Positions 9,796-11,723 of a stretch of 33,390 nucleotides of DNA are shown here, one piece after another. Origin of the DNA: Chlorobiota bacterium. GTDB taxonomy: Bacteria; Bacteroidota; Bacteroidia; Bacteroidales; JAADGE01. Below the pieces are notes generated by a model, which had not been told where the DNA came from, did not search any database, and saw only the letters and a list, made by a program, of their open reading frames with translations. The DNA lies in assembly GCA_013152535.1 (NCBI GenBank), contig JAADGE010000090.1, positions 1 to 33,390 on the forward strand, in the 5' to 3' direction. The position numbers were made by a program, and so were the translations under genes. Every line of letters starts with the position of its first letter. The stretch's first letter is position 1.

Positions 9796-10218
9796 TTAGT
9801 CATCAAAATCGAAATCAAATTTTTCAAATTCTTCAGGTTCGAATATTTCGGTAACAAACGGAACGTCTGAAATAATATTTAATTCAATACCTGTATTTTC
9901 AATTAACTCATCGCCTCTTTCATATTGCCAAACCAACAGCACATCAATATTCTTTTTATAGTTTTTTTCAAACATATTTATAATGTTGGAAATTTGAATA
10001 GCCGATGATGAGTTCAAATAATCAAAATTTAAGATTAATTTAGTTAATTTATTCGGATGTTTGAAATATTCTGTCAGCCAATCTTTTATAGGTAAAAAAA
10101 ATTCATGAGAATTTTCTGAAATAGAACGCCCTCTTATTTGAAAGATATTATTTTCTTTATCAAATATTACTTCCGGAGTTTTTACTGTAGGTTCTAAAAT
10201 AATAGGTTCCGGGAACAT
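9796..10218 (-). CDS. SiaC-like regulatory phosphoprotein (DUF1987), copy 2
   Basis: A 140-residue protein of the DUF1987/SiaC family. Supporting features: start PIILEPTVKTPEVIF, FQIRGRSISENSHEFF, and the central FDYLNSSSAIQI motif (Asn69-Ser70-Ser71-Ser72) in the place where family members carry the phosphorylated Thr or Ser. In Pseudomonas aeruginosa SiaC is phosphorylated by SiaB, dephosphorylated by SiaA and in its free form activates the cyclase SiaD. It follows copy 1 by 24 bp and shares its plan and motif order, so it is a paralogue made by duplication. An acidic tail (EPEEFEKFDFDFDD) is longer than in copy 1. Its stop abuts the MITE. The downstream target here is unknown. Confidence 0.82.
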   Translation of the reverse strand: MFPEPIILEPTVKTPEVIFDKENNIFQIRGRSISENSHEFFLPIKDWLTEYFKHPNKLTKLILNFDYLNSSSAIQISNIINMFEKNYKKNIDVLLVWQYERGDELIENTGIELNIISDVPFVTEIFEPEEFEKFDFDFDD

Positions 10219-10242
10219 TCTGTTTGTTTATATTAAATTCAA

Positions 10243-10635
10243 TCAAAAATCTTCTGAAGGATATTCACTAATTTCAAAATCCAGTTTTGAAACTAATTTT
10301 ATTTCATCTCCGCGTTCTTTAGACATTTCATCACCTTCTTCATACAACCACAAAACTTTTACTTTATTACCTGTTTCGGGAATTTTTTCAAGAAGCATAA
10401 TCAATTCCATAATTTGTCGGGCAGACGAAGAGTTAAAATATTCTAAATCAAACGTAAAGTCAGTATTTTTTAACGGAGTTTTGATATATTCTTCAAGCCA
10501 ATTGTATATCGGAGAATAAAATTCCTTCGGGTCTTCAACAATAGAACGTCCTGCTATTTTGAATTCAGCTTCTTGTTTGTTCAAAATAATTTCAGGACTG
10601 TTTTTGGTTTTTTCTAAGTTTATAGGTTCTAACAT
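10243..10635 (-). CDS. SiaC-like regulatory phosphoprotein (DUF1987), copy 1
   Basis: A 130-residue DUF1987/SiaC protein. The segments INLEKTKNSPEIIL, FKIAGRSIVEDPKEFY, LEYFNSSSARQIMELI (Asn68-Ser69-Ser70-Ser71) and VKVLWLYEEGDEM follow the family pattern closely. Its ATG lies two bases after the stop of the tandem SiaB gene, so the two are almost certainly co-transcribed and perhaps translationally coupled. Together with copy 2 it provides two potential substrates for the two kinase domains. The family resembles STAS-type anti-anti-sigma partners in being switched by phosphorylation. No diguanylate cyclase or PP2C phosphatase is adjacent. Confidence 0.85.
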   Translation of the reverse strand: MLEPINLEKTKNSPEIILNKQEAEFKIAGRSIVEDPKEFYSPIYNWLEEYIKTPLKNTDFTFDLEYFNSSSARQIMELIMLLEKIPETGNKVKVLWLYEEGDEMSKERGDEIKLVSKLDFEISEYPSEDF

Positions 10636-10637
10636 AA

Positions 10638-11723
10638 TTAAAATTTAACTGTTAAAGAATAGAAAGAATAGGTATCATTAATTTTTACAAATTCATAATT
10701 AATTTTATCTTCGGTTTCCCTTGCTAAATCAATTAATCCGAGACCGGCACTTCCTGATTTTGTTGTTTTTCCTTCTCTTAAATATTTACGATACATTTCA
10801 TTGAGTTCATCAACTGTTTTGTTGTTGACTGTATCTAATTGTGTTTTTAAATTCTTAATTTCGGTATTCAGAATAAAATTTCCGGTACCGATATTATATC
10901 TTTTATTTTCGTAACCTATTTGAAAAATACCTTCATGTTTACCGTTAACGGCATAGGAATGTTTGCTGATATTCTGAAGTATTTCAACAAGAAAATGGAA
11001 TATTTTTTTATGAATTTTTAATGAAACATTTTGCATGTTTTCTTCAACCATTTTCAGCATAGGACCGATTGCATCTTCAGAATAATCTCCTTTATGCATC
11101 ATTAAAATATTTTCTTGAGCCACAAGAGCTTGTATTTGTTTGGCATCGGAAAGAGAAATTGAAGGTAAACCGTCATCTTCTTTAGGATTTCGTAATTCTA
11201 TTTGCATAAAAAACATTGATCGTTTATTATCAATTGTAACAAAATCAAACGGTAATTTCCCTTTTGTTTTTCTTACCATTTCAATAAATCCTAATCCGGC
11301 ACCGCCCTTTTCGTTAATTTGCTTATTCGTCAGAACTTCTCGATATAATTTGTTTAATTCCGATTTATCAAGAGTATTTACACGTTCTAATTTTTCCCGT
11401 ACCGTCGGGATTTTGTCATTATCAATTAAATTTGCCGAAATAACATAAAATGTATCACCGATATTTCTTGTCATAAAAAATTCAGAATTTTCATCTAAAT
11501 TTAATGATTCTTCTGTATCAGCATATCTTGAAATGTTTTGAAAACTTTCAATCATCAAAAAAGATAACTTATTTCTGAGTCTTTCATGTTTTTCCTCAAC
11601 ATTATCTTTAAACAGTTGGGTTGCCATTGTCAGCACGTTGTTGCTAAAACTTCCTCTGTATGAGAAACTTATAGCATCTTTTTCAAGAAGACGATAGAAT
11701 TGATAAATCGTATTTGTAGTCAT
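10638..11723 (-). CDS. Tandem SiaB-like protein kinase (two GHKL domains)
   Basis: A 361-residue protein made of two successive SiaB-family (DUF6272, GHKL/anti-sigma-factor-like) kinase domains, about residues 1-178 and 190-361; usual SiaB proteins have one domain of about 180. Each half has an N-box helix (Glu59 to Asn63 in MIESFQNISRYAD; Glu247 to Asn251 in VEILQNISKHSY) and a glycine-rich lid (GGAGLGFIEM at 140-149; GSAGLGLIDL at 324-333), in the same order. The domains share the plan but only limited identity. In Pseudomonas SiaB phosphorylates SiaC; here two SiaC-like genes follow directly. No membrane segment or sensor domain is seen, so it should be cytoplasmic. Alternative: one half may be a regulatory, non-catalytic copy. 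Confidence 0.85.
   Translation of the reverse strand: MTTNTIYQFYRLLEKDAISFSYRGSFSNNVLTMATQLFKDNVEEKHERLRNKLSFLMIESFQNISRYADTEESLNLDENSEFFMTRNIGDTFYVISANLIDNDKIPTVREKLERVNTLDKSELNKLYREVLTNKQINEKGGAGLGFIEMVRKTKGKLPFDFVTIDNKRSMFFMQIELRNPKEDDGLPSISLSDAKQIQALVAQENILMMHKGDYSEDAIGPMLKMVEENMQNVSLKIHKKIFHFLVEILQNISKHSYAVNGKHEGIFQIGYENKRYNIGTGNFILNTEIKNLKTQLDTVNNKTVDELNEMYRKYLREGKTTKSGSAGLGLIDLARETEDKINYEFVKINDTYSFYSLTVKF

Follow-up and report, generated by a model that had tools for sequence, protein, structure and literature searches.

A tandem SiaB-family kinase with two unequal halves, encoded beside SiaC genes in Bacteroidales

A single protein of the Bacteroidales genome studied here carries two SiaB-type kinase units in succession, and its gene is followed by two genes for SiaC, the substrate of such kinases. 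The gene lies on contig C17, which is the window of this work (the whole stretch of DNA analysed, 33,390 nucleotides). We read the locus as a SiaB/SiaC partner switch in which the SiaB homodimer has probably been made into one polypeptide with two unequal halves, and we place the probability of this reading at roughly 0.6. Several observations lead to it: the two SiaB units, the SiaC neighbours, the Ser/Thr at the acceptor position, the lid divergence of the C-terminal halves, the single clade formed by the N-terminal halves, the largely co-inherited SiaC clade and a genome with no detected GGDEF domain. The doubled kinase is a recurrent design of the lineage. Searches of the open-licence papers of PubMed Central listed no work on a tandem SiaB; neither DUF6272 nor the names under which the SiaB and SiaC families are annotated were found in those papers, and DUF1987 was found in one.

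Table 1 Features of the tandem kinase locus. Base coordinates of the N-terminal unit, the N-boxes and the lids were counted by hand from residue numbers.
Feature	Position	Strand	Basis
SiaC copy 2 (140 aa); Ser70 of its NSSS motif predicted as phospho-acceptor, residue number by hand count	9796..10218	minus	PF09345 E 2.6e-28, 98.5 bits
SiaC copy 1 (130 aa); Ser69 of its NSSS motif predicted as phospho-acceptor, residue number by hand count	10243..10635	minus	PF09345 E 4.7e-35, 120.3 bits
Tandem SiaB-family kinase, 361 aa	10638..11723	minus	two DUF6272 / SiaB_fam_kinase stretches, alignment with 11 orthologues, AlphaFold model
C-terminal SiaB unit, residues 188-361, altered lid	10641..11162	minus	structural alignment to SiaB 6kko_A, Z 15.2
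Lid of C half, residues 324-329 GSAGLG, Ser for first Gly of GxGLG	10737..10754	minus	alignments
N-box of C half, E247 to N251	10971..10985	minus	alignments
N-terminal SiaB unit, residues 1-180, canonical lid	11184..11723	minus	alignment and AlphaFold model
Lid of N half, residues 140-145 GGAGLG	11289..11306	minus	alignments
N-box of N half, E59 to N63	11535..11549	minus	alignments

Profile searches place both halves in the SiaB family. Pfam DUF6272 (PF19788) matches two stretches of the protein (E 2.7e-64 and 215.2 bits for the whole protein, against a cut-off of 26.6), as does NCBIfam SiaB_fam_kinase (NF038262; 246.9 bits, curated cut-off 85), and in the search of the whole genome the halves score 113.5 and 113.2 bits with DUF6272. 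The narrower equivalog for the biofilm regulation kinase SiaB (NF038264) scores the protein below its curated cut-off (102.4 bits vs 225). The pairs E59/N63 and E247/N251 and both lids are invariant in all 12 aligned sequences, which are the window protein and 11 orthologues. The original prediction had described two successive SiaB-like domains with these N-boxes and lids in 361 residues, and it is confirmed at each residue. The GxGLG core of the lid reads GAGLG in the N half and SAGLG in the C half, where the first glycine is lost. A chance or erroneous fusion is rejected, given two domain matches of about 113 bits, purifying selection, and an open frame of comparable length in each of the 11 aligned orthologues (66-90% identity).

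An AlphaFold model of the tandem kinase, computed from an alignment of these 12 close sequences, reaches only moderate confidence (mean pLDDT 77.9, pTM 0.75). The same order of helices and strands occurs twice in the model, with a helix-strand-helix ahead of each DUF6272 core, so that each half looks like a full SiaB. Superposition of model residues 188-361 on Pseudomonas aeruginosa SiaB (6kko_A) aligns 163 residues at 2.4 Å with Z 15.2, and Foldseek returns the same entry (6kko_A, E 4.2e-7; 6kko_B, E 3.0e-6). The next-best structures are anti-sigma kinases at Z of about 8 (8ih8_C, Z 8.1; 1tid_A, Z 7.6). The original prediction was to fail if the second half turned out to have an unrelated fold; the modelled second half has the SiaB fold, and the alignment to 6kko_A rules out an unrelated one.

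The two SiaC genes follow in a run. Only 2 bp separate the kinase from SiaC copy 1 and 24 bp separate copy 1 from copy 2, as the original prediction had it for the DUF1987/SiaC gene two bases downstream and the second one in the run. Both copies exceed the curated PF09345 cut-off of 24.5 bits, and copy 1 matches the SiaC chains 6k4f_U and 6kko_C; both fall below the cut-off of the SiaC equivalog NF038265 (72.3 and 66.2 vs 150). Both window copies have Ser where P. aeruginosa SiaC has T68, and each of the 120 SiaC sequences compared, that of P. aeruginosa among them, carries S or T at this position.

The closest known system is SiaABCD of P. aeruginosa (SiaB-SiaC, 6kko; SiaC, 6k4f; SiaC-SiaD, 7e6g). 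There, SiaB is reported as a dimer (PMC7278518); according to PMC7647112, it phosphorylates SiaC at T68 and E61 is its predicted catalytic glutamate, with which we equate E59 of the window kinase by reading the alignments. Common to both systems are a SiaB-fold kinase with a catalytic Glu, a SiaC substrate with a conserved YxN-S/T motif, and the adjacency of the genes. The window differs in that the kinase is doubled in one chain with unequal lids, in that SiaC is present twice (two to five times in orthologous loci) with Ser in place of Thr68, and in that an adjacent SiaA is missing and no GGDEF protein (SiaD) is found in the genome. The departure from the SiaABCD arrangement that had been proposed, doubled kinase and doubled substrate, is thus borne out by the gene layout. 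Two other systems are more distant. SpoIIAB/RsbW with SpoIIAA/RsbV shares the principle of a GHKL serine kinase acting on a STAS-like protein, but its fold match is the weaker one given above, the window proteins belong by sequence to the SiaB and SiaC families, and the only STAS match, to SiaC copy 2, is below threshold. The slr1658/slr1659 superfamily regulators (NF047703/NF047705) show weak sequence similarity to the kinase and to both SiaC proteins, yet the scores lie far under the curated cut-offs (42 vs 100 for the kinase; 18.1 and 17.4 vs 100 for the SiaC copies).

The tandem is no singular case. The window genome (3.3 Mb in 92 contigs, 98.19% complete) holds 11 DUF6272 domains above cut-off, distributed over three tandem kinases (the window's, one on contig C76 and one on C8) and five single ones (two adjacent genes on C15, and one each on C39, C71 and C92), together with 14 SiaC domains above cut-off and 24 SpoIIE-type PP2C domains. 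DUF6272 exceeds the cut-off in 18 of 296 genomes of a phylum sample, where the tandem form occurs in the window genome and one other (G045); within the window's order it is found in 165 of 393 sampled genomes. At least 32 of these 165 carry a tandem, a tally made up of 27 genomes among the matches listed with a tandem-size frame, the window genome and its four family members. Every locus that was opened (those of the 27 order genomes and of G045, 28 in all) proved to be a true tandem.

The tandem kinases keep close company with SiaC. Of the 28 loci, each from its own genome, 25 have a SiaC gene on the same strand as the immediate neighbour, and in one (L157) SiaC is fused to the kinase; at the other two (L151, L154) it was not found in the stretch fetched. 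The neighbourhood survey that the original prediction had called for thus shows a recurrent design with SiaC adjacent or fused in 26 of 28 loci. For kinases of the window type, SiaC stands downstream in 16 of the 16 loci for which that side is available (the window, L130-L132, L134-L141 and L178-L181; the sequence of L133 ends at the kinase). These kinases lie 3' of an RNA-methyltransferase-like gene and mostly 5' of a PcrB-family gene. In six proteins of 505-518 residues, SiaB-SiaB-SiaC is a single chain: the C76 tandem of the window genome, L157, and L170-L173, which come from the four family members of the window genome. The C8 tandem has a SiaC gene tail to tail with it on the opposite strand. 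Among genomes chosen from the phylum and order samples, SiaC is present in 24 of 24 with DUF6272 and in none of 20 lacking it. Gene clustering around 34 tandem loci returned no recurrent output gene, the largest shared cluster covering 5 loci.

Unfused and unlinked arrangements occur as well. On C15 of the window genome (L066:7608-9134), a pair of single kinase genes with degenerate lids (GNIGL, PNIGL) precedes one SiaC. Among four further loci with unfused kinase genes (L186, L187, L188, L189), two genes precede one SiaC in G398 and G497, and unfused degenerate-lid genes number one in G644 and three in G581. On C76, an unlinked SiaC is followed by four short genes and a PP2C protein (L061:392-5934), and the first two of the short genes, the only ones scanned, match hemerythrin; elsewhere on that contig, genes for an ion-channel-domain protein and a polyphosphate kinase come after the SiaB-SiaB-SiaC fusion (L061:12888-18529). 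On C79 (L071:6339-10518), beside a PP2C protein, two SiaC genes flank a DUF4388 protein and two short proteins, the latter two giving no Pfam match.

The two halves of the tandems are not equivalent. In 43 non-redundant tandems, counted over related sequences and hence not as independent events, the N half always keeps the Glu, the Asn and all three GxGLG glycines, while the C half keeps the Glu in 42, the Asn in 43, the middle glycine in 40 and the last in 42, and retains the first lid glycine in only two. That glycine is mostly replaced by S, K or E. Single-domain kinases have it in 46 of 49 readable rows. The SAGLG of the window C half is one of the milder changes; in the same genome, the C half of the C76 tandem is partly decayed and that of the C8 tandem strongly so, with Glu changed to Lys, the lid reading PDIN and most of it gone.

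Phylogeny and rates of divergence were compared between the halves as well. In a kinase tree thinned from 134 to 96 rows (two L088 fragments left out), the N halves form one clade of 32 rows with SH-aLRT 99. On the free tree, the C halves fall into two main groups and one lone row, with 3 label changes; a single C-half clade is not rejected (AU p 0.568), which is no proof of a single origin. Of 66 window-type pairs (L135 left out, as its N half is cut), 58 show closer similarity in the N half than in the C half, and so do 427 of the 435 other pairs. A single pair, which involves L135, has unsaturated dS; its dN/dS is 0.039 in the N half and 0.073 in the C half. Faster divergence together with low dN/dS argues that the C half is constrained but unequal.

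Two readings of the C half other than ours bear on these data. The tandem could consist of two active, redundant kinase domains that raise the kinase dose or local concentration, the lid change being drift. Purifying selection on both halves and the near-complete retention of the catalytic Glu and Asn in C halves speak for redundancy; we nevertheless consider it unlikely, as the loss of the first lid glycine is one-sided (41 of 43 C halves vs 0 of 43 N halves, related sequences though these are) and the C8 C half has lost its Glu. At the other extreme, the C half could be nothing but a pseudokinase scaffold, holding SiaC or some other partner and turning over no ATP, as the lid divergence and the decay seen in C8 and C76 would suggest. 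This is the more improbable of the two, because Glu and Asn are kept in all C halves but one, the window protein included. With nearly all of them keeping both residues the C halves may still be active kinases, which also counts against our own reading.

The original prediction had left two possibilities for the doubled kinase, one domain per substrate or one regulatory domain. If each half served only one of the two SiaC proteins as its kinase, the Glu, Asn and GLG present in both halves of the window protein and the two SiaC genes of its run would be accounted for. The number of SiaC genes does not follow this rule. It can be counted in 14 loci of orthologous kinases, where it is two in five (the window, L130, L132, L134, L135), three in L138-L141 and at least three in L179 and L181, four in L136 and L137, and five in G497, which belongs to the same genus as the window genome. 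Behind the 26 SiaC-linked tandems of other types, exactly one SiaC lies in the stretch fetched in 20 cases; the rest comprise two loci with one adjacent SiaC and another about 2.5 kb off, three with two and one with four. In addition, a further SiaC of the window clade is found unlinked on C24 of the window genome. Since orthologous kinases precede two, three, four or five SiaC genes and most other tandems one, an assignment of one domain to each SiaC is unsupported and we reject it, a pair of dedicated halves being very unlikely. The alternative of one regulatory domain is favoured because the C-half lid diverges consistently.

The SiaC clade is largely co-inherited with the tandem kinase. 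In the SiaC tree, 63 of 65 tandem-associated sequences and one unlinked gene group together with moderate support (84; few columns), the tandem-associated SiaC of L003 and L084 falling outside. The acceptor is S in 33 of 65 tandem-associated and 2 of 46 single-associated SiaC. Five residues past the acceptor, 55 of the 65 tandem-associated SiaC carry a Q, as does 1 of the 9 unlinked ones; none of the 46 single-associated SiaC has it. These too are related sequences rather than independent events. According to PMC8457831, the residues beside T68 in P. aeruginosa, including Y65, N67, S69 and I71, touch SiaD. A change in this helix may therefore be due not only to a new kinase but also to a new target.

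As to what the switch acts on, its usual partners were looked for in the genome. The original prediction had noted no phosphatase or GGDEF gene nearby, and this extends further: none of the 24 SpoIIE-type PP2C matches of the genome is on C17, and a GGDEF search that allowed E values as high as 1 gave no match in the window genome (9 of 14 control genomes were positive in it), so that a GGDEF output encoded elsewhere in this genome is rejected. A PP2C gene does adjoin the kinase locus in the orthologous loci L140 and L141. GGDEF was not found in 69 of 71 DUF6272-positive genomes (70 chosen from the order sample, and G045); the two matches are G360:C122:4066-4539 and G684:C4:10782-11228. It was likewise not found in 22 of 22 DUF6272-negative genomes of the order and in 3 of 3 positives elsewhere in the class, which argues that its absence belongs to the lineage and is not tied to the kinase. 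Outside the class, the phylum sample has 13 genomes with DUF6272, and all 12 of these that were tested gave a GGDEF match: one weaker hit each in seven, and six to nine hits in five. Of four of these genomes that were opened, two (L174, L175) encode the phosphatase, a single SiaB, SiaC and a GGEEF protein consecutively, which is the canonical order, and two (L176, L177) show only SiaB and SiaC in the stretch fetched. With no GGDEF detected here or in nearly all kinase-bearing genomes, SiaC is unlikely to switch a diguanylate cyclase in the window genome. The history was likely one of cyclase loss, with the A-B-C part retained and expanded; the direction is one that we infer.

In the mechanism we propose, the two halves would pair in the manner of SiaB subunits. 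Phosphate would go from the N half to the leading Ser of NSSS in both SiaC proteins, and the C half, with its Glu and Asn kept under a non-canonical lid, would serve mainly in pairing, docking or nucleotide-dependent regulation. The phosphate would be removed by a PP2C phosphatase whose gene lies elsewhere, and unphosphorylated SiaC would bind a target other than a diguanylate cyclase. A kinase that is fused to its own dimer partner offers an easy handle for learning which half is at work and what SiaC binds.

SiaC is known as the activator of one diguanylate cyclase. Its abundance, together with the kinase, in genomes with no detected GGDEF domain suggests that here the pair probably has a different function. 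As a broader and more tentative proposal, which we hold at somewhat less than even odds, Bacteroidota devoid of GGDEF cyclases may have a SiaABC switch that shed its cyclase, grew in copy number and gave rise to an obligate two-headed kinase, composed of a canonical and an altered SiaB half and sometimes of SiaC as well, that would read or set several SiaC proteins at once, each steering a different non-cyclase target.
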